From: Chloroflexi bacterium OLB15
Lineage (GTDB): Bacteria; Chloroflexota; Anaerolineae; Aggregatilineales; Phototrophicaceae
NCBI GenBank assembly: GCA_001567085.1
Contig: LMZS01000072.1
Coordinates: 1-64,000 of the forward strand
Direction of reading: 5' to 3'
DNA: 64,000 nt
Shown here: positions 10,235 to 46,534 of the stretch, piece by piece
Layout: every line of letters begins with the position of its first letter
Position numbering within the stretch: position 1 is the stretch's first letter
Program-made: the position numbers and the translations under genes
The notes under the pieces: model-generated
Told to the model about the DNA's origin: nothing
What the model saw: only the letters and a program-made list of their open reading frames with translations
Database searches by the model: none

Positions 10235-11065
10235 ATGCCCTGCATTATCCAATTCTTGACCCCCAGTGGCCTTGAGCCAGCGCCTTACACCGCCAATTCA
10301 CTCGCTGATGCTGCCCAGTACGAACCCCGCGATGGCGTTTATACCATCACCAATACTTTCCACATGACGCAGGTTTTGAATTTCGACGCCCATCTTGACC
10401 GCATGGAAAATTCAGCGCGTATTGCCGGTGTTTCGCTGCAACTAGACCGTGCGCGGGTGCGTTCGGCGCTTCGCGAGCTGATCAAGGCAGCGAATTTTGG
10501 CGATGTACGCTTTCGTATTACCGCTGCGCCCTCGCTGGGCAGCGCCCTAATTCTGTCCATTGAGCCGTTTATGCCGCTCGCGCCGAAAGTATATGAAAAT
10601 GGGGTTCGCGTGGTTACGCTGCCTCACGCATCCCGCGCCACGCCAAACGCTAAAACCACCGGTTGGATGCTTGACCGCCGCCAGATTGAAGAAAGCCTGC
10701 CGTCCGGCATCTTCACAGGCCTTCTGGTGAGCGAATCGAACGAAATCCTTGAAGGCGTAAGCAGCAACTTCTACGCGGTATTCAATGGCGAGCTGCGAAC
10801 AGCGGGGGAAGGTGTTCTGCCGGGCATGGCGCAAAAAGTGGTATTTGAGATCGCAGAAAAGGTCTTACCACTCGTAAAAACGCCTGTTCACGTCAGCGAT
10901 ATTCCGCAGTTAAGTGAGGCTTTTATCACCAGCGCCAGCCGGGGCATCGTGCCTGTAGTCGAAATTGATGGGTATGTGTTAGGCGATGGCCGCCCCGGAG
11001 AAAAGACACAGGCGCTGCAAGGGTATTATCGGGGCTGGGTGAATTTACATCTCGAAGAACTCTAA
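10235..11065 (+). CDS. Class IV (fold-type IV) PLP aminotransferase
   Basis: A 276-residue relative of branched-chain aminotransferases, D-amino-acid aminotransferases and aminodeoxychorismate lyase. The candidate PLP lysine is in TPNAKTTGWMLDRR (K140). The motif EILEGVSSNFYAV (about 166-178) corresponds to the conserved E(G)xxSNxF segment of the family, and TSASRGIVPV near residue 230 to the phosphate-binding loop. The N-terminus lacks the YGxGxFE-type motif and instead reads EPRDGVYTITNTF. The exact reaction cannot be decided. It is divergent from aspartokinase and may share its control region. The ATG at 10235 follows GGACGAG, an imperfect ribosome site. Confidence 0.85.
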   Translation: MPCIIQFLTPSGLEPAPYTANSLADAAQYEPRDGVYTITNTFHMTQVLNFDAHLDRMENSARIAGVSLQLDRARVRSALRELIKAANFGDVRFRITAAPSLGSALILSIEPFMPLAPKVYENGVRVVTLPHASRATPNAKTTGWMLDRRQIEESLPSGIFTGLLVSESNEILEGVSSNFYAVFNGELRTAGEGVLPGMAQKVVFEIAEKVLPLVKTPVHVSDIPQLSEAFITSASRGIVPVVEIDGYVLGDGRPGEKTQALQGYYRGWVNLHLEEL

Positions 11066-11078
11066 AAGCGCGTTTCCC

Positions 11079-11981
11079 TTATTCATCCTCAATTGGCGCT
11101 TTGAAGTCATAAATGCCATCACGCACCGCCCAGCGCCGGTGATCACGGTGGCAGATCATCTCTTCCCCGCTTCGCTCAAGGCTGCCGCCGCAATCCGGGC
11201 AGGCAAAAATCGAAGCCGCGTTCAGGTTGGCGACGCCATGTTTTCCCGCTGCCGCCTTCACAAAAACGCTTGGCGCATATAACGCGCCGGTCATCTGCAT
11301 CAGCCCATCCATGCCCGCAAGCACCGATGCGCCAATCCTCTGTTTGAGTGAATTCAGGCGGAAAAACGACACTGGCATGCGGCGCCCTACCGAAAAATCC
11401 GCCGCCTGCAATTCCTGTCGTATATATTCAGGGTGAAAGTCAAAGTTCAGCTCAACAAATTCAACTGGCTCCAAAGTATTCGGATTCCAGTTCTGCTTTT
11501 TAGTTGAATAACGCACTAAGGCCTTCAAATTACGCTTGTTGGCATGTTCAAGAATGAAAACTGCTTCCGGCGAAAGCACCCGCCGCACCTGTGCCAGCAC
11601 AGTACGCACGCTCGCCATATGATGAATCACGCGAATCATGGTTGCGCCGTCAAACACGCCCGGCTGGAAGGGAAGTTTATAGGCATCTGCTGCTACGTAA
11701 ATGTAGCGGCCTGAACGCCCTAGCCTATCCTGCGCGTATTGAAGCTGTGACAGTGAGTAGTCAAGCAGCACAACCTGTTCATAGGCATGGTATTCTTCCG
11801 TCAGCCGCCCAAAGCCTGCGCCAATCTCAAGCAGGCGCTTGCCCTGTTTCGGCAGCAGCCGGCGCAGCGCAATTCGCTCGGCGCGATCTTCGTAATCGCG
11901 CCCTTTGTTTTCCCAGAATTCGGTTCGGTAATCAGAGCCTTCGTAGTCACAAATACGCGGCGCTGGTTCAGGTTTTGTCAT
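11079..11981 (-). CDS. SAM-dependent methyltransferase with C-terminal zinc-ribbon-like segment
   Basis: A 300-residue class I methyltransferase. Motif I LLEIGAGFGRLTE (about 50-62) and LLDYSLSQ (strand 2) are clear, as is the region around VIRVIHHM near residue 115. The last about 45 residues hold CPDCGG and then C-H-R-D-H-R-R-W, followed by AVRDGIYDF. This resembles the Trm112-like or RlmA-type zinc-binding piece that some methyltransferases carry at one end. The substrate is unknown. The convergent neighbour ends 13 bases away with no clear terminator between. Confidence 0.8.
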   Translation of the reverse strand: MTKPEPAPRICDYEGSDYRTEFWENKGRDYEDRAERIALRRLLPKQGKRLLEIGAGFGRLTEEYHAYEQVVLLDYSLSQLQYAQDRLGRSGRYIYVAADAYKLPFQPGVFDGATMIRVIHHMASVRTVLAQVRRVLSPEAVFILEHANKRNLKALVRYSTKKQNWNPNTLEPVEFVELNFDFHPEYIRQELQAADFSVGRRMPVSFFRLNSLKQRIGASVLAGMDGLMQMTGALYAPSVFVKAAAGKHGVANLNAASIFACPDCGGSLERSGEEMICHRDHRRWAVRDGIYDFKAPIEDE

Positions 11982-12134
11982 CTAAATTCCAAAGGGGGCG
12001 CTTGCAGCATAGCACGCAAACGAAGCGCGCATCCCTCACTAACAAGGCCATCAGGCGTATCACAAATATTGTAAATCAAGCAGCAATCATGTGACAACCG
12101 CTGTCTCTGATCAGTTTGCAATATCTGCGGGGGG

Positions 12135-13133
12135 CTAACTTCCTGCCCCCTGCCCTGTTTCTGGAATCACAATCGCTGTAGGCACTACTGTAGGCGGTAG
12201 TTGTGCCGAACCAGACGGATCAGTTGGCGGTTCAGTATTCGGCTGTTCAACCTCAACCGGCTGCCCCTCAGCATATGAGCCGTCATACGCGCGGCGGCTG
12301 ATACCCAGCGCATCCAGATGGGCAATCGCTGCCTCGTTAGCCGCCTGCGGGTTGGCATTATTCTCGTAAAGCTCTGGCCGCAGCACCTGATCCATCGCCG
12401 GAATACCGCCCAATGGCACGATGCCGGTCACCAGCGGTTGGTTAGCAATCGGCACTGGCTCGCCCGCCAGTGTATATCCCACGCCTGCCGTCTGGCTGTA
12501 ACCCGGCCAAGGATCTTCACTATAAGCATTAGCAGCCAGCAAATTCGCCCGTCCAGCCAGCGCCTCGCCTATCAGCGAAATGGTATCGCCCAGCCCATCA
12601 GGCAAGTTATACAGCGCGCGGGCAATTGGCTCAAATGTCAGGCGCAGATTCTCAATCGGATCGTGAAGTTGGGTATCCGCAATCGGTATGACCGCGCGCA
12701 CATCCAGCGATACATCAAGCTGTTCATCCACTGGCACATTCAAATCTAAAGCGACTGGCAGTTCTAACCCTTGCGGCAGCGTTAGGTTGACGGTTGCGCT
12801 CAAGTTGCCGCCGCCGCCGGGCAAAGTGATATTCGCGTTCACAAACAGCGGCACGTTTTCAGTCAGCACAACAGTGGTTTCGGTTTGCAGGGGAATATCC
12901 ATCACCACAGGAATGCTGTCACGAACCGGGATCGTCCAGTCAATCGTCGCTTCATCCAGCCCGACAAAACTGCTGTGCAAGCCGCTGACCAGCGGAGTCA
13001 CGATATTGTTTTTGATGTCAAAGATCATGAAAACCAGCGCTAAGATAATCACGACCAGCACAAGATTGACGATGAACGAGAATAGGATGAAGAAATTCTT
13101 CAATCCTGTGCCAATCGCCTTTAACATACGCAT
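12135..13133 (-). CDS. Membrane-anchored protein of unknown function
   Basis: A 332-residue protein with one strong membrane helix near the N-terminus (about residues 13-36). The rest is probably extracytoplasmic. It contains repeated beta-rich segments of the form (V/I)PLxTETTVVLTENVPLFVNANITLP and PVDEQLDVSLDVRAVIPI, suggestive of an LEA/immunoglobulin-like or tube-forming lipid-binding beta sheet; this is inference. The tail (about 290-332) is Pro/Glu/Thr-rich and disordered. ATG 13133 follows AGGGG with correct spacing; the frame is open to 13160. I do not recognise a named family. Confidence 0.65.
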   Translation of the reverse strand: MRMLKAIGTGLKNFFILFSFIVNLVLVVIILALVFMIFDIKNNIVTPLVSGLHSSFVGLDEATIDWTIPVRDSIPVVMDIPLQTETTVVLTENVPLFVNANITLPGGGGNLSATVNLTLPQGLELPVALDLNVPVDEQLDVSLDVRAVIPIADTQLHDPIENLRLTFEPIARALYNLPDGLGDTISLIGEALAGRANLLAANAYSEDPWPGYSQTAGVGYTLAGEPVPIANQPLVTGIVPLGGIPAMDQVLRPELYENNANPQAANEAAIAHLDALGISRRAYDGSYAEGQPVEVEQPNTEPPTDPSGSAQLPPTVVPTAIVIPETGQGAGS

Positions 13134-17499: not shown

Positions 17500-17558
17500 G
17501 CTAGCCAGCAGTATCATCTTTCGTATTTGTAATTGTGGCGCACATGGAGAGAGTGGCG

Positions 17559-18632
17559 ATGAAAGGGCTGATCCTCAGCGGTGGTAAAGGCACACGACTC
17601 TATCCTCTCACCTATACACTGGCAAAACAGCTCGTCCCCGTCGCCAATAAACCGGTACTCGTCCGTGTGATTGAGTTGATCCGCGATGCTGGCGTCAATG
17701 AAATTGGGATCATCATCGCGCCGAATACAGGGGACGAAATTCGCGCGGCAGTTGGGGATGGTTCGCGTTGGGGTGTCCACATCGAATACATCTTGCAAGC
17801 CTCACCCGATGGCCTCGCCCACGCTGTCAAGATCGCTCAGCCGTTCATCGGCGATGACCGCTTTGTGATGTTTCTTGGCGATAACGTGATTCAAGGTGGC
17901 ATCAAAACCTTAATCGCTGACTTTGCCAACCATGAGTGGAACAGCCAGATTGTGCTGAAACAGGTAGACAACCCGCGATCCTTCGGCGTTGCGAAACTAC
18001 GCGCAGACGGCTCGATTGAGAAGCTCATCGAAAAGCCGCAAAACCCGCCCAGCAATCTGGCTTTAGTGGGCATTTACATGTTCGACCACCATGTTTTTGA
18101 AGCCGTGAACAGCATTCAACCATCCCAGCGGGGTGAATATGAGATCACAGATGCGATCCAGTGGCTAATAGATCATGGCTATGTGGTGCAGCCCCACGTA
18201 CATCAGGGATGGTGGATTGATACCGGCAAGGCCGCCGATATGCTGGAAGCCAATGCCAGCGTACTTGATGAAACAACGCCAGCCATTGCGCCGGATGCGG
18301 TGATTGAAAATTCGCAGGTAGACCGGCGGGTGACGATCCAATCTGGCGCGCAAATTATCAACAGCATTGTGCGCGGGCCATCTATCATCGGCGAAGGGAC
18401 GATTATCCGCGATAGTTATATCGGGCCGCACACCAGCATTTATCATCATGTCGTCGTTGATCGATGCGAAATAGACCGCTGTATCGTGCTGGAGCACAGC
18501 GAAATTCGCCACCTTCCGGCTAGATTGCATGACAGCCTGATCGGTCGCTATGCTAAAGTCTTACGCCGTGAAACGCGCCCACTTGCCCTGACCATGAATC
18601 TTGGCGATCACAGCAGCGTAGAAATTATCTGA
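17559..18632 (+). CDS. rmlA: Glucose-1-phosphate thymidylyltransferase, long form
   Basis: A 357-residue nucleotidyltransferase that makes dTDP-glucose from dTTP and glucose-1-phosphate. The pyrophosphorylase signature LSGGKGTRLYPLT is at 6-18, with LGDNV and the sugar-binding region (EKP, WWIDTGK) following. After about residue 235 comes a left-handed beta-helix (hexapeptide) domain (IAPDAVIENSQVDRRVTIQ, GPSIIGEGTIIRDSYIGP) that distinguishes the long actinobacterial/archaeal-type enzymes from E. coli RmlA. ATG 17559 has GGAGAG about 7 bases upstream; upstream in-frame starts lack one. It feeds rmlB two genes on. Confidence 0.9.
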   Translation: MKGLILSGGKGTRLYPLTYTLAKQLVPVANKPVLVRVIELIRDAGVNEIGIIIAPNTGDEIRAAVGDGSRWGVHIEYILQASPDGLAHAVKIAQPFIGDDRFVMFLGDNVIQGGIKTLIADFANHEWNSQIVLKQVDNPRSFGVAKLRADGSIEKLIEKPQNPPSNLALVGIYMFDHHVFEAVNSIQPSQRGEYEITDAIQWLIDHGYVVQPHVHQGWWIDTGKAADMLEANASVLDETTPAIAPDAVIENSQVDRRVTIQSGAQIINSIVRGPSIIGEGTIIRDSYIGPHTSIYHHVVVDRCEIDRCIVLEHSEIRHLPARLHDSLIGRYAKVLRRETRPLALTMNLGDHSSVEII

Positions 18633-18657: not shown

Positions 18658-19560
18658 ATGAGCGAAATGACTATTCGAGCAATTGCGCTGGATATTGACG
18701 GTACGCTGCTCAATAGCAAGCACGAACTCACACCCGAAGTCGAAAAAGCGCTGCGTGATGCCGCAAATCAACATGTACAGATCATTCTGGCAACCGGCAA
18801 ATCACGTAATTCCGCTGTCCACCTGATCAAACATCTGAAGCTGGAAACTTACGGCATCTATTTGCAAGGCACCGCCATTTATGACGCTTCCGGCAAAATC
18901 ACGCATCAGAAAACGCTTGATCCAGATTTACTGCGCCGTGTAATCACCTATGTGGATGATCGCGATTTCTCGGTCATTGCTTACAGCGGCACCCGCATCC
19001 TGGCGCGCAGTGTGAATGCTGACATGAGTGAATCCACGACCAAATATCACGAGCCAGTTCCCGAAGCTATCGGCGCGCTGCAAAACGTCGTCGGAACGCT
19101 GCCAATCAACAAGATTATGATGATTGGCGAGCCTCGCGCGATCACGGCGCTGCGCTGGCAGTTGAATATTCAACTGGGTGGCGCTGCCCGGTTAGTGCAA
19201 GCCGGGTTAAGCAATATGCTGGAAATGCTGCCGCTGGGATCAGGAAAAGGCCCTGCGCTGGCTACCCTTCTCCAGGACTTGAAGATTTCGCCTGCTGAAG
19301 TGATGGCCGTTGGCGATGCTGAAAATGACATCGAAATGCTTCAACTGGTGGGCGTCGGGGTCGCAATGGGGCAAGCCGAGCAGATCGTGAAAGATGCTGC
19401 CGTTCATGTCACAGCCTCAAATGACGATCATGGCGTTGCCCGCGCCATTGAAAAATTCGTCATCAGGCAGCAGCCATCACCAGCGCCAGCAGTTGAAGAT
19501 GCAGCAACAACCGTCATTCGCCTTACGCCACCGGCAAACGCCAGCGGAGAGCATTCATGA
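18658..19560 (+). CDS. Cof-type HAD phosphatase
   Basis: A 300-residue haloacid-dehalogenase hydrolase of the Cof/type IIB class (sugar phosphate or cofactor phosphatases). Motif 1 is ALDIDGTLL with nucleophile D12 and acid D14. The type II cap lies about residues 85-190, and motif 4 is AVGDAENDIEML near 225. The C-terminal about 35 residues are Ala/Pro-rich and probably disordered. It lies between rmlA and rmlB and overlaps rmlB by 4 bases (ATGA), so it is part of the operon. A role in sugar-phosphate turnover is inferred from position only. The start follows GAAGGAAA. Confidence 0.88.
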   Translation: MSEMTIRAIALDIDGTLLNSKHELTPEVEKALRDAANQHVQIILATGKSRNSAVHLIKHLKLETYGIYLQGTAIYDASGKITHQKTLDPDLLRRVITYVDDRDFSVIAYSGTRILARSVNADMSESTTKYHEPVPEAIGALQNVVGTLPINKIMMIGEPRAITALRWQLNIQLGGAARLVQAGLSNMLEMLPLGSGKGPALATLLQDLKISPAEVMAVGDAENDIEMLQLVGVGVAMGQAEQIVKDAAVHVTASNDDHGVARAIEKFVIRQQPSPAPAVEDAATTVIRLTPPANASGEHS

Positions 19561-20582
19561 AAAATATTCTCGTCACCGGCGCGGCAGGTTTTATCGGCAG
19601 CGCTTTTGCCCGCTACATGGTGCACGCCTATCCGCAGTACAACATCATCGTTTACGACAAGCTGACGTATGCCGGCAATCTTGAGAACCTGCTGCCAATC
19701 TCCGATGAGCCGAATTATCGTTTCGTACAGGGCGATATTGCGGATCGTGCCGTTGTGCAGCGATCTTTCAACGAATATGAAATCGATACTGTCGTCAATT
19801 TCGCCGCCGAAAGCCATGTAGACCGCAGTATTTTGCAGGCAGATGCGTTCATCCATACCGATGTTGTCGGCGTCTACATCCTGCTGGATACCGCGAAGCA
19901 GCATGGCATTGAACGTTTCCTGCACGTCTCTACCGATGAGGTCTATGGCGACATCCACGCCGGTTTCTCGGTGGAAACCGATGGTTTCGCGCCCAACAGC
20001 CCCTATGCTGCCAGCAAAGCAGGCGGCGAAATGATGGTGCGCGCCTATCACATCACACACGGCATGAATACAGTGGTTACGCGCGGCAGCAACACCTACG
20101 GGCCGTATCAGTATCCCGAAAAGCTGCTCCCCTTCTTCATCACTGAAGCCATTGATGATCACCGGCTTCCCGTATACGGCGATGGCAAACAGGTACGCGA
20201 TTGGCTGTTTGTTGAGGATCACGTAACCGGCATTGATACCGCGTTGCATCACGGCAAAGCTGGCGAAGCCTATAACATCGCAGGGGAAGACTTACATGAA
20301 AATATTGATGTCACCCATAGGCTGCTATCGCTTTTAGGCAAATCCGAAAACCTGATCAAGCATGTGCCTGACCGCGAAGGCCATGATCGCCGTTACGCCA
20401 TGAACTGCGACAAGCTGCGCGCGCTGGGCTGGAAGCAGCAGTTTAATTTCACCGACGGGTTAGAAGCCACCGTAAATTGGTATCGCGATAATGCCTGGTG
20501 GTGGCGCAAAATCAAGACGGGCGATTATCTCGAATACTACCGCCAGCAGTATGCGGCGCGTTTAGCCGCATCTGAAGGATAA
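19557..20582 (+). CDS. rmlB: dTDP-glucose 4,6-dehydratase
   Basis: A 341-residue short-chain dehydrogenase-type enzyme that converts dTDP-glucose to dTDP-4-keto-6-deoxyglucose using bound NAD. The NAD motif GAAGFIGS is at 8-15. The T126-D127-E128 motif of dehydratases (HVSTDEVYGD) and Y150xxxK154 are intact, and NTYGPYQYPEKLLP follows. It is the hub of the cluster. Its product can go to rhamnose via RmlC/RmlD or to 4-aminosugars via a WecE-type transaminase, one of which is encoded at 43.5 kb. Confidence 0.95.
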   Translation: MKNILVTGAAGFIGSAFARYMVHAYPQYNIIVYDKLTYAGNLENLLPISDEPNYRFVQGDIADRAVVQRSFNEYEIDTVVNFAAESHVDRSILQADAFIHTDVVGVYILLDTAKQHGIERFLHVSTDEVYGDIHAGFSVETDGFAPNSPYAASKAGGEMMVRAYHITHGMNTVVTRGSNTYGPYQYPEKLLPFFITEAIDDHRLPVYGDGKQVRDWLFVEDHVTGIDTALHHGKAGEAYNIAGEDLHENIDVTHRLLSLLGKSENLIKHVPDREGHDRRYAMNCDKLRALGWKQQFNFTDGLEATVNWYRDNAWWWRKIKTGDYLEYYRQQYAARLAASEG

Positions 20583-20589
20583 TCACACC

Positions 20590-20958
20590 ATGCGTGCGGC
20601 AAAATACAAGCTCACCACCGCTGAAAAGGCGACCGCTAAAGAAGAAATGCGCGCCGCCCTCATTGATGCCGCCCGCAAGCGCGAACTTATCACCTATTCG
20701 GAATTATGCCTGCGCATCCCTGGCGTAGGCTTATACCCACACTCGTTTATCTTCACCCAACTGCTGCGCGAAGTATGCCATGAAGAATACGCCAAAGGGC
20801 ATCGCCAGCTCTGTGCGCTGGTCGTCAGGAAAGCAACCGGCATGCCCGGCGGCGGCTACTTTTCCGATACCGCCCCCCTCAAGCGTGACTTTGGCGATTT
20901 GGTTGCGGAATGGCGTGCCGATGTTGAAGATGTTTTTGAATACTGGAGTACCCACTAA
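20590..20958 (+). CDS. Small conserved-looking protein of unknown function
   Basis: A 122-residue protein, soluble, with a helical basic N-terminus (residues 1-45). Then comes LITYSELCLRIPGVGLYPHSFIFTQ in pieces resembling a winged-helix fold, a central ALVVRKATGMPGGGYF (about 77-92) and an acidic C-terminus (DLVAEWRADVEDVFEYW). I have a vague memory of ALVV-K-TG-PG-GFF motifs in small proteins near DNA-modification genes, but cannot name a family. It starts 7 bases after rmlB and its stop shares one base with the rmlD start, so it is fully embedded in the sugar operon. It is too short and lacks the motifs to be the missing RmlC epimerase. Confidence 0.7.
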   Translation: MRAAKYKLTTAEKATAKEEMRAALIDAARKRELITYSELCLRIPGVGLYPHSFIFTQLLREVCHEEYAKGHRQLCALVVRKATGMPGGGYFSDTAPLKRDFGDLVAEWRADVEDVFEYWSTH

Positions 20959-21812
20959 TGCGTGTCCTGATCACTGGCGCGCGCGGCAGGCTGGGTAGTG
21001 CGCTGCTCGCACAGCTCGCCGGCAAAAACCATGCTTTGACCGGCATTGATATTCAAGAACTCGATGTCACCAATTTCAACGCCACCCGCGATCTGATCAA
21101 GGAAATCGCGCCAGAAATGATCATTCATGCAGCAGCCTGGACGGATGTTGACGGCTGCGCGAAAGAGCCTGACCGCGCCATCGTACAAAATGGCTTTGGC
21201 GCGGGGCATGTCGCTCAGGCCGCCGCAGCCATAAACGCCCGCGTGATCTACATTAGCAGTAACGAAGTGTTTGACGGCAAATTGAGCCGCCCCTATCGCG
21301 AATATGACATCACCAACCCCGTCAATCCCTATGGCTACAGCAAGTGGGTGGGCGAACAGATGGTACGGGAAGCATCTCCCCGTCATCAGATTGTGCGTAC
21401 TTCATGGCTATTCGCGCATGGCGGGAAAAACTTCATCCAATCTATCCTCCGTGCCGCCGCCGAAGGAAAGCCGCTCAAAGTGGTCACGGATGAGGTCGCC
21501 AGCCCAACATACACGGATGATCTGGCTGCTGCTTTAACCCAACTAGTAGATATAGAGCGCTGTGGCACTTACCACCTCGTGAATCAAGGCTGCTGCTCGC
21601 GCTACGAATTTGCCCGCTATGTGCTGGATAACGCCGGATTCAACCACGTTGCTATCGAGCCTATCCTGTCCGCCAGTTGGCAGCGCGCATCCACCCCGCC
21701 CCCATTCTCGCCGTTAGAAAATCTCGCCGGAACAGTGGTTGGCATTACATTACGCTCATGGCAGGACGCTGTAGCCGCGTTTCTGGATCGTGAAGGCTTG
21801 CTGCGTTCATGA
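20958..21812 (+). CDS. rmlD: dTDP-4-dehydrorhamnose reductase family protein
   Basis: A 284-residue SDR enzyme that reduces dTDP-4-keto-rhamnose with NADPH. GARGRLGS (7-14) is the cofactor loop, and the catalytic Y125xxxK129 lies in NPYGYSKWVGE. IIHAAAWTDVDGCAKEP, ISSNEVFDG and RTSWLFAHGGKNF are hallmark RmlD segments. The final 60 residues are less typical. No rmlC (3,5-epimerase) is seen in the window, so rhamnose synthesis would need one elsewhere. The start codon overlaps the previous stop (TAATG), a sign of coupling. Confidence 0.9.
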   Translation: MRVLITGARGRLGSALLAQLAGKNHALTGIDIQELDVTNFNATRDLIKEIAPEMIIHAAAWTDVDGCAKEPDRAIVQNGFGAGHVAQAAAAINARVIYISSNEVFDGKLSRPYREYDITNPVNPYGYSKWVGEQMVREASPRHQIVRTSWLFAHGGKNFIQSILRAAAEGKPLKVVTDEVASPTYTDDLAAALTQLVDIERCGTYHLVNQGCCSRYEFARYVLDNAGFNHVAIEPILSASWQRASTPPPFSPLENLAGTVVGITLRSWQDAVAAFLDREGLLRS

Positions 21813-39410: not shown

Positions 39411-40442
39411 TTAGGATGATGCTCCAGCAGAAGCGTCCAATCCGGTCTCGCTCATAATTTCCTCAACGCGCTCTGAAGTCAGGTCAAGATCATTAAGGAT
39501 AGTGAACGGCAAATCGTGCTTGCGCACATATTCAGGCAAAATTTTCAGAGTATCGCGAATATTATTCGCTGGTAGCTGATCCAGACGAATGCCCGCTGAA
39601 GCCAGCGTTTCACGAATCGGGCCAACATCCTGCCCGTGCAGCGCCGCTGCAATCAATAGCCCCGGCCCAACGCGATCTGCATACGGAAGCGGGCGGCTGC
39701 GCGGGAATTTTTGTTCATAGGCATACGCGAACAACTGCTCACTGCCCTCTTGAGGGCGATTGTGGCCTAGCTGGTTGGTCAATTGCACTTCCAAACACAT
39801 CAAGTCAAGCAGGTTGCGCAGCGGCTCAACATTTCCCTTGCCAACGCCGCTTGCAATCTTGAACGCTTGCTGGGCTATGCCCGCCATAATTCCAGCAGCC
39901 CAGGGTTGGAAACGGGTATCAACGGTCGTCTTGTTATGCTCCGCCGCATAACGCCAGTCCAGCAGGCCAGTGACAATAGTGAGCAGTTCGATTATCCCCG
40001 CCCCACGAACGTTAGGTGGCGCTGTGCGAATCACATCCCAGTTAACAATCAGCTTGCTGACCGGGCCGGTCTCTACATAATGTGTTGTGCCACCTTGCCG
40101 CGCCGCAACAAGCGCTGTCAAGAAACCGTCCTGGCTAAGCACCGTTGGGATAACCACGACCGGGATATTTTTCTTCCAGCCCAGATATTTAGCAACATCG
40201 GATACCAACCCGCCGCCCACGCCATAAACGACTTCTACTTGCGGGGGAACAGCATCCGCCAGCGTATCCAGATAGCTTACATCGACGCGATCTGGTTCTG
40301 CCTGAACGACAATCGGCAGTTCCACCAACGCGCTCACCGAATTCCAACTACGTGAACCCGTGACAAGCGCCACCGGGCGGCGCTCGGTTAGGCTTCCTAG
40401 ATCGCGAATTTCCACTTCAGGAACAGGAAAAATCGTGGGCAT
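39411..40442 (-). CDS. Glycerol-1-phosphate dehydrogenase (AraM/EgsA)-like protein, altered metal site
   Basis: A 343-residue protein of the iron-containing alcohol dehydrogenase/dehydroquinate synthase-like fold. The cofactor loop GVGGGLVSDVAKYLGW (about 90-105) and VIPTVLSQDGFLTA match G1P dehydrogenases. The expected metal-binding residues look changed: the usual GxGDxxS reads GIIELLT, and the first His motif GSEHLFxH reads GSEQLFAYA; only LHGQDVG retains its His. So it may have lost the metal or bind it differently. Alignments are from memory. ATG 40442 is preferred because GGAG is upstream; the frame is open to 40553 with an atypical basic extension. Confidence 0.75.
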   Translation of the reverse strand: MPTIFPVPEVEIRDLGSLTERRPVALVTGSRSWNSVSALVELPIVVQAEPDRVDVSYLDTLADAVPPQVEVVYGVGGGLVSDVAKYLGWKKNIPVVVIPTVLSQDGFLTALVAARQGGTTHYVETGPVSKLIVNWDVIRTAPPNVRGAGIIELLTIVTGLLDWRYAAEHNKTTVDTRFQPWAAGIMAGIAQQAFKIASGVGKGNVEPLRNLLDLMCLEVQLTNQLGHNRPQEGSEQLFAYAYEQKFPRSRPLPYADRVGPGLLIAAALHGQDVGPIRETLASAGIRLDQLPANNIRDTLKILPEYVRKHDLPFTILNDLDLTSERVEEIMSETGLDASAGASS

Positions 40443-40763
40443 GCGTTTACAGCTCCGTGAGCAGCGGGTCAGGCTAGCATATGGTCTAATAATCTGCGTT
40501 ATGGATAAGCGCTCTGAGCGAGAAATACTGCCTTTGCGGCTCTCACCTGCCACCCCCGCTTAACCATCGGGTCGGCATGAGGGGCAAGAATCCAACTTAT
40601 CCCTAACTGATGTCTAATAATAGTCGCAAAGAGGTTGATTTTGCAATTTCATTAGGTTAGAACATCACTCAAGTTCCAACTTGTAGGAAATCACCCTATC
40701 ATTCAAAATTAGGGGCGCAAGCATACCAGCAGCACTATATCAGCTTTACACGAGAATAAGCCT
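40443..40763. other. Divergent intergenic region, 321 bases
   Basis: This stretch lies between the divergent genes at 40442 (minus) and 40764 (plus). The minus-strand frame stays open to 40553 but is not thought to be coding. Candidate -10 elements (TATGCT on the minus strand near 40480, TATATC on the plus strand near 40737) lack good -35 partners. No RNA gene, repeat or terminator is seen. Confidence 0.6.
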
Positions 40764-42560
40764 ATGTCGCTTCCTTCCAACGACACGTTGATCGAATTTA
40801 GCAGCGCCATTTCCTGGCAAGAAATCGAACGCGCCAAGCGCCAGTTTAACCGTGCACTTGAAACCCTCGCAACTGACTCGCAAAGCGATCAACTTTTGCT
40901 GGATGACCTTTCCGAAGCCACTGGCATGCCGATCACCTCTTATTATGACCCTGCGCTGCATGACAGCGGAAACGTGCTGCTAGCCAAACAAAACGGGCAT
41001 CAGTTCATTCTTGGCAGCGTCGTCAGCGCGCGCTATCGCAGCGGGCACGGCCTGCTCGAATGTATCACCCCTTACAATCTGAATCCTAGCGTTAATCATC
41101 TCAACATTCAGGAAACTGAAGACCCGAATGCGCGTATGCGGGTATTGGGTGCCGAAATCGAATTGGGGCTGGTTCATGCCGACGGCCATTCGCCCTCTGA
41201 AGAAGAGATGCAGGGCTACATGCGTGCCTATTACAACCATGCGCTGCGTATTGGCATCTACCCCCGTCTTGACCGTGAAGCCTGCCAGTATCAGGTGGAA
41301 GCCCACATCGCCCCAAGCATTGGCTACAACAAAGCGCGTAATGCCCTCACCGGCATCATGACGGCATTAGCCGCCGCCAGCGCCGAAACCGGATTGCTTA
41401 CGGCGATCATGTCTTGCTATCCCACCGATTCCGATTTCAAGATGACTGATCACCCGAAAGTTGCTACTGCTGTAGACCTGATGCTTGAGGTCAATGATTT
41501 ATTCCCGCAGTATGCGGATCGGTTGGCAGAAACTGAAGCACGCTATCACATCAATTTCCCCGGCAGCCATTACGTCAATATGTTCCGTATTCAAGGCTGC
41601 CACATTCATATTGATCTTGCCGGACGTTCAGAAGCGTTGGGGCTGCTCACCTTCCACACCATGTTAAAAAGCGCGACCGCCATCGCCAACGCGGCGGTGT
41701 TGAAGGGCGGCCCCTTCGTCAATGGCACCTGTGACGCCGAACTGCTGTGCGCGCGTGAATATGTGCGCGGGGCAACCGTAACCGGGCGCTATCTGGATTT
41801 GCCGATCAGCCCTCATTTGATGGCAGATGGTCTGGAGAAATATGCTGCGCTGCTCAAACTGGAACGTGCGAACGCCGTTGGCAGAGCCATGCTGTACGAT
41901 GACAGCCTTGGGCAGCCAATCAGCATCATGCACAATCCCGTTGGTCGGGTTCGCCCCGATCTTTCCACTTCAAAGCGCGTCTGCACGGTTGAAAGTACCG
42001 GCATGCCCGCCAATATCAGCGCCTCGCGCATGGCCGCCGTACTCACCGATTTTGAGTTCAGCCACGCCTTAATGGAGCTTTATTTCCGCAAACACGGGCT
42101 TGATCTGGAACCCATGCATGAAGACAAGACCTTGTGGGCAATCCTTGGCCCCCTTGATCATGATGCTTTCGTCGCCAATCATGATCGTTCGGATCGTGAA
42201 GGCACAGATACCGTCATCACCACCGCCGCCGGCACTGAAATGACGCTGGCAGAATTTTACGAGATGAAGCGCCGCTATATGCACCGCGCCTTATCCAACA
42301 TTGATGAAATTACCCCGCGCGATATTGATGAGGTCTATACCAGCTTGCAGCGTATGCTGGAGCCCCCTAGCGGGCTGGTTGCGCAAACAGTTCACCAGTT
42401 CATTGTAGATCCCAAACTGCGCAGCACCGGCAACTGGGGCAAAATCTTGCAAAATGCCTATGTCGAAGCGGGCGGTGTGTTGGGCAAACACAGCCCCGAT
42501 GCGGTGCTAAAAGTGGTGAATGACGTGCATCGCGCCTTAGCCACCCGCTATCTGGAATAG
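40764..42560 (+). CDS. Glutamate-cysteine ligase (GCS2)-like carboxylate-amine ligase
   Basis: A 598-residue soluble protein. RVLGAEIELGLVHADG (about 125-140), CQYQVEAHIAPS (about 173-184) and FRIQGCHIHIDL (about 270-281) resemble the three acidic/His blocks that form the metal-ATP and substrate sites of GCS2/YbdK-type ligases, with the conserved E-x-E and the GCHxHI(D/G) motif. The protein is about 200 residues longer than YbdK. It would join an amine to an ATP-activated carboxylate; substrates unknown. It starts an operon with a glycosyltransferase and an aminosugar transaminase (gaps 23 and overlap 4 bases). A different glutamine-synthetase-fold reaction remains possible. Confidence 0.55.
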   Translation: MSLPSNDTLIEFSSAISWQEIERAKRQFNRALETLATDSQSDQLLLDDLSEATGMPITSYYDPALHDSGNVLLAKQNGHQFILGSVVSARYRSGHGLLECITPYNLNPSVNHLNIQETEDPNARMRVLGAEIELGLVHADGHSPSEEEMQGYMRAYYNHALRIGIYPRLDREACQYQVEAHIAPSIGYNKARNALTGIMTALAAASAETGLLTAIMSCYPTDSDFKMTDHPKVATAVDLMLEVNDLFPQYADRLAETEARYHINFPGSHYVNMFRIQGCHIHIDLAGRSEALGLLTFHTMLKSATAIANAAVLKGGPFVNGTCDAELLCAREYVRGATVTGRYLDLPISPHLMADGLEKYAALLKLERANAVGRAMLYDDSLGQPISIMHNPVGRVRPDLSTSKRVCTVESTGMPANISASRMAAVLTDFEFSHALMELYFRKHGLDLEPMHEDKTLWAILGPLDHDAFVANHDRSDREGTDTVITTAAGTEMTLAEFYEMKRRYMHRALSNIDEITPRDIDEVYTSLQRMLEPPSGLVAQTVHQFIVDPKLRSTGNWGKILQNAYVEAGGVLGKHSPDAVLKVVNDVHRALATRYLE

Positions 42561-42583
42561 CCCATGTCGCAATCTGCACAGCC

Positions 42584-43552
42584 ATGAGCGCTGATTTGCC
42601 ATCTATCTCAGTTGTCGTCCCTGTTTATCGAAGCGCCGAAAGCCTGCCTGAACTGGTCGCTACGGCATCCCCTGTTCTGGCAAATCTAGCGGATCAGTAC
42701 GAAATCATTTTTGTGAACGACGGCAGTCCGGATAATAGCTGGGCGGTCATCGAAGCGCTGGCGCAGCAGTATCAGCAGGTTCGCGGCATCAACCTGATGC
42801 GTAATTATGGGCAGCACAGCGCCCTGCTCTGCGGCATCCGCGCCGCGCGCTATGAGCTGATCATCACTATGGATGATGATCTTCAGCACCCGCCAGAAGC
42901 GATACCCTTATTATTAGCCACGCTCAACAAAGGCAGCTTTGATGTGGTCTATGGCTCGCCCGAAGACGAAACCCATTCCCTGCTCAGGAATTTAGCCTCT
43001 CAGATCACCAAGTGGGCGCTGCAAAGCAGCATGGGTGTAACTACCGCCCGCAAAGTAAGCGCCTTTCGCATCTTCCGCACCAATCTGCGCGATGCCTTCG
43101 CCGAATATCGCAGCCCCTATGTCTCTATTGATGTGCTGCTGACGTGGGGAACGACTCGCTTCACCGCAGTTCATGTCGCCCATCGCGCTCGTAAATACGG
43201 TCAATCAAATTACACCCTGCGTAAGCTGGTCACCCACGCCTTTAATATGATCACTGGTTTCACTGTCGTCCCGCTGCAAATTGCCAGCTTACTCGGCTTC
43301 AGCCTGGCGCTGTTCGGCATCCTCATCCTCATTTACGTGATCGGGCGTTACCTGATTGAAGGCGGAAGCGTTCCCGGATTCCCATTCCTGGCGGCGATCA
43401 TCGCCATTTTTTCAGGCGCACAGCTTTTCGGGCTAGGCATGATCGGCGAGTATCTGGCGCGTATCCACTTCCGCAGCATGGAAAAGCCTTCGTATACTGT
43501 GCGCAATACAATTGGGTCTGTACAGCGTGATACAGAACAGGATAGACCTTGA
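42584..43552 (+). CDS. Polyprenyl-phosphate glycosyltransferase, GtrB/ArnC-like
   Basis: A 322-residue GT2 enzyme with two C-terminal membrane helices (about 229-252 and 264-288). The catalytic domain has SVVVPVYRSAESL, IIFVNDGSPDNSW and MDDDLQHPPEA, the DxD-type site of polyprenyl-phosphate transferases. It would move a sugar from a nucleotide to undecaprenyl phosphate on the cytosolic face. The next gene makes a 4-aminosugar nucleotide, so that sugar is a possible donor. The stop overlaps the next start (TTGA). Confidence 0.9.
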   Translation: MSADLPSISVVVPVYRSAESLPELVATASPVLANLADQYEIIFVNDGSPDNSWAVIEALAQQYQQVRGINLMRNYGQHSALLCGIRAARYELIITMDDDLQHPPEAIPLLLATLNKGSFDVVYGSPEDETHSLLRNLASQITKWALQSSMGVTTARKVSAFRIFRTNLRDAFAEYRSPYVSIDVLLTWGTTRFTAVHVAHRARKYGQSNYTLRKLVTHAFNMITGFTVVPLQIASLLGFSLALFGILILIYVIGRYLIEGGSVPGFPFLAAIIAIFSGAQLFGLGMIGEYLARIHFRSMEKPSYTVRNTIGSVQRDTEQDRP

Positions 43553-44688
43553 GCTATCGCATTCCCTTCAACAAACCCGCACTGATCGGCCCGGAACTCG
43601 GCTATATTGCTGATTCAGTACGCAGCGGGCATATCTCTGGCGATGGAAAATACACCAAACTGTGCCATCAGCAGCTTGAAACCTGGTTCGGCGTAAAGAA
43701 GGCGCTGCTCACAACCAATTGCACCCACGCGCTTGAAATGTCCGCCATTTTGCTCGATTTGCAGCCCGGCGACGAAGTGATCGTGCCTTCGTTCACCTTT
43801 GTTTCAACCGTCAACGCTTTCGTGCTGCGCGGGGCAAAGCCAGTTTTTGCCGATATTCGCCCCGACACATTGAATATTGATGAAACCCTGCTGCCCGGTT
43901 TGATCACTGAACGCACCAGAGCAATTGTGCCTGTACACTATGCTGGCGTCGGCTGCGTGATGGACGCGATCATGCCTTTGGCACAGCGGCATAACCTCAC
44001 GGTGATTGAAGACAATGCGCACGGTCTGTTCGGCAGATACAACGATCAATGGCTAGGCACGTTCGGGGCTTTGGCTACCCAGAGCTTCCACGAAACCAAG
44101 AACTTTTCCTGCGGCGAAGGCGGCGCGCTGCTGATCAACGATGAAGCGCTGGTTGAGCGCGCAGAGATCATTCGGGAGAAAGGCACTAACCGCAGCCGCT
44201 TTTTCAGAGGCATGGTTGATAAATATACGTGGGTGGATGTGGGCTCCAGCTATCTGCCCTCAGAGGTACTGGCGGCATATCTATACGCGCAGTTTGAAGC
44301 CAGTGAAGCCATCCAAAACAAACGCGCGCAAATTTGGAATCGGTATCAGCAGCATCTTAGCGAGTGGGCACAGTCTCATGATGTTCGCCTGCCAACCGTG
44401 CCCGAAAACTGTGAGCAGGCCTATCACATGTTCTATATGCTGCTTCCCTCGCTGGAAATTCGCACCCAGTTGATCAACCACCTGAAAGAACGTGGCATCC
44501 TGGCCGTTTTTCACTATCTGCCGCTGCACCTTTCCGACATGGGGCAGCAGTTTGGCGGCAGTCCTGGCGACTGCCCGGTAACGGAAGAGATGAGTGACCG
44601 TTTGCTGCGTTTGCCCTTCTTCTACGATCTCTCTGAGCAAGACCAGATGGAAGTGATCCACGCCCTCTGGTCATTTGAAGAAGGTTAA
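43549..44688 (+). CDS. wecE: dTDP-4-amino-4,6-dideoxygalactose transaminase (WecE/RffA type)
   Basis: A 379-residue PLP enzyme of the DegT/DnrJ/EryC1/StrS family. It is very close in sequence pattern to E. coli WecE: IPFNKP, SGxxSGDG, PGDEVIVPSFTFVST, VPVHYAGVGCVMD, REKGTNRSRFFRGMVDKYTW, MAVFHYxPLH-like LAVFHYLPLH. The PLP lysine is K184 in SFHETKN. It converts dTDP-4-keto-6-deoxyglucose, the RmlB product, to the 4-amino sugar. The start is TTG 43549, overlapping the previous stop, with AGGA upstream. No wecD (N-acetyltransferase) follows; the GCS2-like ligase may instead act on the amine. Confidence 0.9.
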   Translation: MSYRIPFNKPALIGPELGYIADSVRSGHISGDGKYTKLCHQQLETWFGVKKALLTTNCTHALEMSAILLDLQPGDEVIVPSFTFVSTVNAFVLRGAKPVFADIRPDTLNIDETLLPGLITERTRAIVPVHYAGVGCVMDAIMPLAQRHNLTVIEDNAHGLFGRYNDQWLGTFGALATQSFHETKNFSCGEGGALLINDEALVERAEIIREKGTNRSRFFRGMVDKYTWVDVGSSYLPSEVLAAYLYAQFEASEAIQNKRAQIWNRYQQHLSEWAQSHDVRLPTVPENCEQAYHMFYMLLPSLEIRTQLINHLKERGILAVFHYLPLHLSDMGQQFGGSPGDCPVTEEMSDRLLRLPFFYDLSEQDQMEVIHALWSFEEG

Positions 44689-44815: not shown

Positions 44816-46534
44816 GTGCTGGGACACAAATTTTTGTGTTTCCAGACAGCGTTGAATCACGTTATGTCCAAACAACAACCCAAACTGCGAATCGTCCCGC
44901 TCGGTGGCGCCGGTGAAATCGGCAAGAATATGACGGTCATCGAAATGGACGATGACGCAATTATCATCGACACGGGCGTCATGTTCCCGGCCAACGATAT
45001 GCTTGGCGTCGATCTGATTATCCCCGATTTTCGCTATCTCACCGAACGTAACAAAAACCTGAAAATTCACGGCATTTTGTACACTCATGGTCACGAAGAT
45101 CACACTGGCGCGGCGGCTTATGTCGTTGATGCGCTGCGTGGTGTTCCCCTCTATGCAACCCCGCTCACGGCGGCGCTGCTGGAGGTGAAACTTCGTGATG
45201 CGCATTTGCTGAATGAAACATCAATCAATGTCTTTCATCCGGGCGATAAGCTGGAGGTCGGGCCATTCAGGATCGAAAGTTTCCACATGACCCACAGCAT
45301 CCCCGACTGCGTGGGCTTTGGTATCACGACGCCCTACGGCATGATCATCCACAGTGGCGACTACAAATTTGACAACACGCCAATAGATGGCAAGAAGCCA
45401 GATTACGCCAAACTAGGCGAGCTATCGCGGCGCGGCGTCCTCTTGCTGCTGGGCGATAGCACCAATGCTGAACGTCCCGGCTGGACGGCATCTGAACAGG
45501 TGGTGCTCAAAGGCTTTGACGACATCTTCCGCCAGTCAAAAGAACGCATCATCGTAGCCACTTTCGCTTCGCACATTTCGCGCATCCAGATGATCGCAGA
45601 CATGGCGGCGAAGTATAAACGCAAGGTCGCAATTGCCGGGCACAGCATGACCGAAAACGTCAAAACCGCCCGAAAAATCGGCCTGTTGAATATCCCCGAT
45701 GATATTCTGGTAGATTTGAACCGCATCAATCACATCATGCCTAACCAACTGGTGATCGTTGCTACAGGTTCGCAGGGTGAGCCTTCAGCCGTCCTGAGCC
45801 GTCTGGCAACAGGGCAGCATCGCAGCCTTGATGTGATGGCCGGAGATACGATTGTCGTCTCGGCGCATACCATTCCGGGCAACGAAGAAATGGTCAGCCG
45901 TACAATTAACCAGTTGTTCCGGCGTGGCGCGGAAGTTATCTATGATCCGATTGCGCCGGTTCATGTCTCTGGTCACGCTTCGCAGGAAGAAATGAAACTG
46001 CTGATCAACCTGACCACCCCGCGATACTTCGTGCCTATTCACGGCGAACTGCGCCATTTGAAGGCCCATGCTCGGCTGGCTGCGTTAAGCGGCATTGAGC
46101 CGAAGAATATCTTCGTGATCGAAAACGGCATGGTGCTGGAAGCCGATAAGAACGGCGTGCGCGCCACCAACGAGCGCGTTCCCGGCGGCTATGTGTTCGT
46201 GGATGGCAGCGGCGTTGGCGATGTTGGCCGCGCCGTCATTCGTGACCGCGAAGTGCTGGCGCGTGACGGCTTCATGATGGTCGTCGTGAATGTTGACCCT
46301 GATAGCGGCAAGGTGCTTGGCGAGCCAGAAATCATCACGCGCGGATTTGTATATCTGCGTGATGCCGACGACCTGATCGAGAATATCAAGCGCACCGTGT
46401 ATGACGTGATGGATCAATCACGGGCGCTGCGCAACGGCCAGCGCCGCGAACGCCTGCAAGAATCCCTCAGCCGTATGCTGTTCAATGAAACGAAGCGTCG
46501 TCCGATGGTCTTCAGCGTAATTAACGAGAACTAA
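44816..46534 (+). CDS. rnj: Ribonuclease J
   Basis: A 572-residue metallo-beta-lactamase/beta-CASP nuclease with 5'-3' exo- and endonuclease activity on RNA. The metal motif YTHGHEDHTGA gives H91, H93, D95 and H96; HSGDYK, GDSTNAERPG, SHISRIQ, IAGHSMTEN and VHVSGHAS are the beta-CASP and J-specific blocks. GTG 44816 has AAGGAAA eight bases upstream and is taken as the start; ATG 44864 (16 codons later) lacks a good ribosome site but fits the usual N-terminus. A hairpin-prone segment (44821-44843) falls right after the GTG. A strong terminator follows. Confidence 0.95.
   Translation: MLGHKFLCFQTALNHVMSKQQPKLRIVPLGGAGEIGKNMTVIEMDDDAIIIDTGVMFPANDMLGVDLIIPDFRYLTERNKNLKIHGILYTHGHEDHTGAAAYVVDALRGVPLYATPLTAALLEVKLRDAHLLNETSINVFHPGDKLEVGPFRIESFHMTHSIPDCVGFGITTPYGMIIHSGDYKFDNTPIDGKKPDYAKLGELSRRGVLLLLGDSTNAERPGWTASEQVVLKGFDDIFRQSKERIIVATFASHISRIQMIADMAAKYKRKVAIAGHSMTENVKTARKIGLLNIPDDILVDLNRINHIMPNQLVIVATGSQGEPSAVLSRLATGQHRSLDVMAGDTIVVSAHTIPGNEEMVSRTINQLFRRGAEVIYDPIAPVHVSGHASQEEMKLLINLTTPRYFVPIHGELRHLKAHARLAALSGIEPKNIFVIENGMVLEADKNGVRATNERVPGGYVFVDGSGVGDVGRAVIRDREVLARDGFMMVVVNVDPDSGKVLGEPEIITRGFVYLRDADDLIENIKRTVYDVMDQSRALRNGQRRERLQESLSRMLFNETKRRPMVFSVINEN

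Follow-up and report, generated by a model that had tools for sequence, protein, structure and literature searches.

A carboxylate-amine ligase-like gene ahead of a putative lipid-linked amino-sugar cassette in Chloroflexi bacterium OLB15: a possible stand-in for YbdK-type GCS2

Why would a gene resembling GCS2-type carboxylate-amine ligases stand directly ahead of the genes for a polyprenyl-phosphate sugar transferase and a sugar transaminase? The question is raised by a locus in 64,000 nucleotides of the uncultured Chloroflexi bacterium OLB15 (assembly GCA_001567085.1, contig LMZS01000072.1, positions 1 to 64,000 of the forward strand; hereafter the window). A first-pass annotation proposed a joint mechanism, in which the ligase, here called LIG, would make an amide on the aminosugar in place of the usual N-acetylation by WecD. 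The observation of the three genes holds, but the joint mechanism is not the reading that we favour. We propose, with roughly even confidence, that LIG is a housekeeping carboxylate-amine ligase standing in for YbdK-type GCS2, and that the genes behind it form a module for a lipid-linked 4-amino-4,6-dideoxysugar resembling those of the Arn and enterobacterial common antigen (ECA) pathways. The three genes are as follows:

40764..42560, plus strand: LIG, divergent carboxylate-amine ligase-like protein (GCS2 / glutamine-synthetase-fold-like); open reading frame of 598 aa, ATG start
42584..43552, plus strand: GT2, ArnC-like polyprenyl-phosphate sugar transferase; open reading frame of 322 aa, ATG start; Glycos_transf_2
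43549..44688, plus strand: WecE, dTDP-4-amino-4,6-dideoxygalactose transaminase; open reading frame of 379 aa, TTG start; NCBIfam cut-offs passed

The coordinates, strand and spacing all agreed with the coupling described at first: LIG and GT2 are separated by 23 bases, and GT2 and WecE overlap by 4 bases, TTGA, in which the stop of GT2 is shared with the start of WecE. Each of the three genes is conserved at the protein level among related genomes. Scanning of the operon region for promoters and terminators gave site counts at chance level with no excess over shuffled sequences, so it is the spacing and the conserved order that make a single transcription unit probable.

Mutual exclusivity of LIG and YbdK-type GCS2 within the family

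A profile search detected LIG in 58 of the 98 genomes of the window's family, belonging to 20 of its 24 genera, and PF04107, the GCS2 family, in 34; no genome carried both, and six carried neither. The two genes were then mapped onto a phylogeny built from the RNase J of 88 genomes (87 of the family plus one outgroup; genomes with no usable RNase J were dropped). On this tree the LIG-less, GCS2-bearing genomes fall into four lineages, namely G493, most of genus g245, G440 and two genomes of g236, and parsimony required four changes for LIG and seven for GCS2. The likelihood ratio of a Pagel-type test was 36.5 (nominal p 2e-7), and none of the 711 simulations under independence that were retained from 4000 runs gave so small an overlap; these figures come from a single-gene tree with weak nodes and one outgroup, and from rates that lie at the boundary.

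An exclusivity of this kind might also reflect shared history, in which two enzymes with no functional relation were gained or lost a few times at the level of lineages. The number of switching lineages is only about four, the placement of G440 has a support of 0.36, and the limits of the test just given, together with the coexistence of LIG and GCS2 outside the family (below), leave room for this explanation. It is nevertheless improbable in our estimation, given the outcome of the simulations and the presence of GCS2 in every LIG-less lineage of the tree, three single genomes with neither gene excepted. By-eye reading of 16 GCS2 neighbourhoods revealed no constant partner (the GCS2 gene itself was unflagged in L240, L241 and L243).

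Beyond the family, 11 further LIG genomes were found in the same order, bringing the total to 69 of 154 genomes of the order, and LIG was found only in this one order of Chloroflexota. A single-sequence search of 400 genomes across the phylum returned LIG from two, the window's own and G240, and none of 49 pattern matches on viral contigs was a LIG relative. Among the named relatives, 13 of 14 are metagenome-assembled genomes of Anaerolineae or Chloroflexi. The locus titled Pleurocapsa minor, a cyanobacterium (L004), has the gene order of the Anaerolineae loci and is probably a mislabelled metagenome bin. At L105 (G450), on the same contig as L016, LIG lies in two frames with a stop codon within the match; the split is probably an assembly gap, because the second piece in L016 begins next to a short run of unknown bases. 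A narrow literature search found no description of this ligase family.

LIG as a probable distant member of the carboxylate-amine ligase superfamily

The label 'GCS2-like' given to LIG at first proved plausible in part. At residues G129-A130-E131-I132-E133, LIG reads GAEIE, in agreement with the pattern GhExE, which is given as the signature of the carboxylate-amine ligase superfamily in PMC2588565. In all 69 LIG sequences, the window's included, G129, E131 and E133 are kept, while position 130 is Ala in 59, Val in six, Thr in three and Gly in one. Also invariant in all 69 are E172, Q177, E179, H280, H282, R288, E290 and D324, followed by R331, R335, H390, R395, R397, T408, E410 and R422. The His, Glu and Arg residues among these are of the kind seen in carboxylate-amine ligases with a glutamine-synthetase fold and are candidates for the active site. 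When the 69 LIG sequences were compared by hhalign with 40 GCS2 sequences, residues 127-322 were aligned and four motifs were collinear (E 0.0029, as against E 0.18 for the reversed-profile control). In terms of known proteins, LIG shares with E. coli YbdK (1r8g) and the PRK13515-type proteins (PF04107, TIGR02050) the GhExE-like signature and the collinear QVE, HxH and PF/PY-x-x-G motifs, as seen in this weak profile alignment, whereas the TLEIR motif of GCS2 is represented by TVEST at the position judged equivalent by eye, and LIG is far longer than YbdK (598 versus 372 aa).

The other part of the label, membership of GCS2 itself, did not stand. LIG of the window had no Pfam match, and a Pfam scan of 15 homologues gave scattered matches only, in one or two members each. 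Against TIGR02050, LIG scored 19 bits (cut-off 176), and 13 of the 15 homologues were similarly weak against the same model. A PF04107 search of the window's own genome did not pick up LIG, shallower LIG and GCS2 profiles gave no meaningful alignment, and searching solved structures with the LIG sequence and profile gave no match even at E limits of 1 and 10. Since the signature is present but the alignments are weak and no usable structural model was obtained, LIG is better described as a probable distant member of the carboxylate-amine ligase superfamily, and not as a member of GCS2.

As to function, LIG would phosphorylate a carboxylate in an ATP-dependent manner to give an acyl-phosphate and then form an amide, probably on a small housekeeping substrate. 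We infer that this substrate is shared with YbdK-type GCS2, that it is most likely glutamate together with an amine, for instance cysteine, and that the product might be gamma-glutamylcysteine or another gamma-glutamyl amide. LIG would lie outside the sugar pathway and perform the same job as the GCS2 found in other lineages of the family. A 2004 paper reportedly described E. coli YbdK as a carboxylate-amine ligase that has gamma-glutamyl:cysteine ligase activity; to our knowledge, the physiological substrate of YbdK-type GCS2 enzymes is not settled. A ligase family from one Chloroflexota order thus appears, within one family, to substitute for YbdK-type GCS2, and learning the products of LIG and GCS2 would answer one question for two enzyme families.

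Several results weigh against this proposal. LIG falls below every family cut-off; the probability of its hhalign match to GCS2 is only 10.7%; and its C-terminal half is unaligned (residues 330-470 were not aligned, and global mode gave an empty result). AlphaFold, run on 14 LIG sequences as whole protein and as core, yielded models with a mean pLDDT of 53 and 40, too poor for a fold search. Outside the family, PF04107 accompanies LIG in nine of 11 genomes, so that LIG and GCS2 are not always interchangeable. Moreover, two observations link LIG with the cassette behind it: the gap between LIG and GT2 is below 120 bases in 19 of the 24 loci with GT2 downstream, which fits one operon, and WecE occurs in 52 of 58 LIG genomes versus 22 of 40 LIG-less ones, a weak association in tree-aware testing (p 0.019, likelihood ratio 11.8). 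Finally, the window's genome gave no match to PF02955 (glutathione synthetase type), which occurs in only 7 of the 98 family genomes, six of them over the cut-off; ordinary glutathione is accordingly an unlikely product of LIG, and glutathione synthesis was lowered among the candidate roles.

In another explanation, LIG makes an envelope or peptide amide, for example on a protein, a lipid head group or a cell-wall peptide, as a product separate from the sugar but co-regulated with the sugar module, and it is by coincidence that LIG and GCS2 exclude each other. The frequent position of LIG as the first gene before envelope-sugar genes within the family, its coexistence with GCS2 elsewhere and its length all speak for such a role. 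However, five of the outside loci, gone through gene by gene and by eye, showed no constant envelope partner (a GNAT-like gene lies upstream in two of the five), and the tree-aware exclusivity would need another cause. We consider this explanation rather unlikely.

The amino-sugar route and the variation of the cassette

The assignment of WecE is secure. The protein scored 579 bits against NF008687 (cut-off 375) and 548 bits against TIGR02379 (cut-off 435), and its solved relatives are WecE of the ECA pathway (4piw, 6blg; E about 1e-139). GT2 carries PF00535 (Glycos_transf_2, 106 bits), and its best NCBIfam model is that of ArnC, PRK10714, at 200 bits, below the equivalog cut-off of 529. The closest solved relatives of GT2 are chains of ArnC, the undecaprenyl-phosphate 4-deoxy-4-formamido-L-arabinose transferase (9hwj, E 6.6e-52 over 308 residues), followed by sll0501 (5ekp, E 2.5e-35), which we take to be a GtrB-type enzyme. 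Hydrophobic C-terminal stretches are visible by inspection of the GT2 translation. The first-pass name 'GtrB-type' fits the polyprenyl-phosphate-sugar type of GT2, but the protein is nearer to ArnC than to sll0501.

RmlA and RmlB form dTDP-4-keto-6-deoxyglucose, which WecE converts to dTDP-4-amino-4,6-dideoxygalactose (dTDP-Fuc4N), the substrate that WecD acetylates; 4-amino sugars are formylated by ArnA-type enzymes and transferred to undecaprenyl phosphate by enzymes of the ArnC type. RmlA and RmlB were confirmed in the window, where their genes and that of RmlD, between 17.5 and 21.8 kb, all pass their cut-offs:

17535..18632, plus strand: RmlA, long form (TIGR01208, 443 bits, cut-off 320)
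19557..20582, plus strand: RmlB, dTDP-glucose 4,6-dehydratase (TIGR01181, 451 bits, cut-off 365)
20958..21812, plus strand: RmlD, dTDP-4-dehydrorhamnose reductase (TIGR01214, 274 bits, cut-off 224)

The lipid-linked 4-amino-sugar route suggested at first is accordingly coherent, with RmlA and RmlB supplying dTDP-4-keto-6-deoxyglucose to WecE and GT2. WecE would convert it to dTDP-Fuc4N, the 4-amine would in relatives be acetylated (WecD-like) or formylated (ArnA-like) before loading, and the ArnC-like GT2 would place the sugar on undecaprenyl phosphate. Because the partner transaminase is of the WecE type, GT2 probably takes a dTDP-Fuc4N derivative as its donor in place of the UDP-Ara4FN used by ArnC. 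The module also departs from the ECA pathway, since WecE is here partnered by an ArnC-like transferase and no other Wec genes are in the operon.

To follow the cassette among relatives, the LIG neighbourhoods of 57 other family genomes were read with that of the window, giving 59 loci (LIG of G444 is in two pieces); in 42 of these the sequence continues for 5 kb or more past LIG, and the counts that follow rest on them. WecE lies within 7 kb downstream of LIG in 29 of the 42, both GT2 and WecE in 19, and neither in 13. Among the 19 loci with LIG, GT2 and WecE, a WecD-like GNAT occurs in 12, an ArnA-like formyltransferase in six, and at least one of the two in 16. The formyltransferase of L009 is nearer to ArnA (E 2e-44) than to the best tRNA formyltransferase (3.6e-33). 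The GNAT of L008 is nearest to WecD, the dTDP-fucosamine acetyltransferase (2fs5, E 3.9e-11); three GNATs tested against NF008212 (WecD) scored 105, 114 and 79 bits, all under the cut-off of 219. Thus the cassette would present WecD-type acetylation and ArnA-type formylation side by side or alternating on one WecE sugar that feeds an ArnC-like transferase. At L082, a tandem pair of WecD-like acetyltransferase matches lies between GT2 and WecE (oriented coordinates 10761-12292).

It was true, as first noted, that the window's operon has no acetyltransferase; the window, L051 (G424) and L064 (G432) are the three loci with LIG, GT2 and WecE but neither GNAT nor formyltransferase. In the window's genome, which is 91% complete, the sole match to a formyltransferase query is of 33% on another contig, perhaps a tRNA enzyme, and a WecD query gave partial matches of 30-33% only. 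With no dedicated N-acylating gene found in this strain, the sugar may keep its free amine, or may be modified by a gene that went unrecognised or unassembled.

These loci are where the original idea has its best case, namely that LIG acts in the place of WecD, at least where the cassette has no N-acyltransferase, by coupling the 4-amine of the sugar made by WecE to an amino acid or another carboxylate; the weak matches elsewhere in the genome and the positive association of LIG with WecE are in line with it. But the 16 loci of 19 that retain an acylating gene beside LIG argue against such a replacement, and each part occurs without the other. In genus g245, LIG is absent from 33 of 34 genomes, 21 of which have WecE, and all four of the g245 loci read (4 of the 21; L132-L135) contain GT2, WecE and RNase J plus GNAT and/or formyltransferase beside IDH, with no LIG. 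Outside the family, GT2, WecE, GNAT and formyltransferase were near LIG at none of 11 loci (seven with 8 kb downstream, four with little downstream sequence), and seven of these 11 genomes encode a close WecE elsewhere (E no higher than 1e-100). The check named in the first-pass annotation, whether the ligase homologues usually occur without aminosugar genes, had a mixed outcome: they do so outside the family (11 of 11) but not inside it (WecE within 7 kb downstream in 29 of 42 loci). Furthermore, within the family LIG follows the absence of GCS2 more strongly than the presence of WecE (likelihood ratios 36.5 and 11.8). On these grounds, the acylation genes beside LIG and the separate occurrence of cassette and LIG, we rejected the WecD-replacing ligase as the leading explanation and regard it as quite unlikely. 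Less likely still is its narrower form, in which a new glutamine-synthetase-fold amide ligase, recruited in G424, G432 and this strain, adds an amino acid or glutamate as a cap to lipid-linked Fuc4N at its 4-amine.

Ends of the locus and neighbouring genes

Two further genes flank the operon in the window:

44816..46534, plus strand: RNase J, the frequent downstream end of the locus (Pfam and NCBIfam scans)
39411..40553, minus strand: glycerol-1-phosphate-dehydrogenase-like gene, divergent neighbour of LIG (NF002022, 87.9 bits, cut-off 413)

In relatives, RNase J is found downstream of LIG with or without aminosugar genes in between, and the intervening genes differ from locus to locus, which makes LIG and RNase J the frequent ends of a segment of variable content. 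WecE starts less than 100 bases after LIG at L071, L078, L081, L094 and L098. At L068 (9797-10945; genus g227), a sugar-dehydrogenase-like beta-propeller gene (PF07995) lies between LIG and WecE, and apparently the same gene was recognised by eye at L075 and L077 of this genus. The glycerol-1-phosphate-dehydrogenase-like gene is divergent and less than 500 bases from LIG in 32 of the 59 family loci and in none of the 11 outside. Beside LIG at L003 (9801-11663) and L020 (4961-6856) are apparently multi-span membrane proteins of 620 and 631 aa, the former with no Pfam match and the latter with 25.6 bits against PMT_2 (cut-off 26.1); these could be ArnT-like transferases using the lipid-linked sugar.

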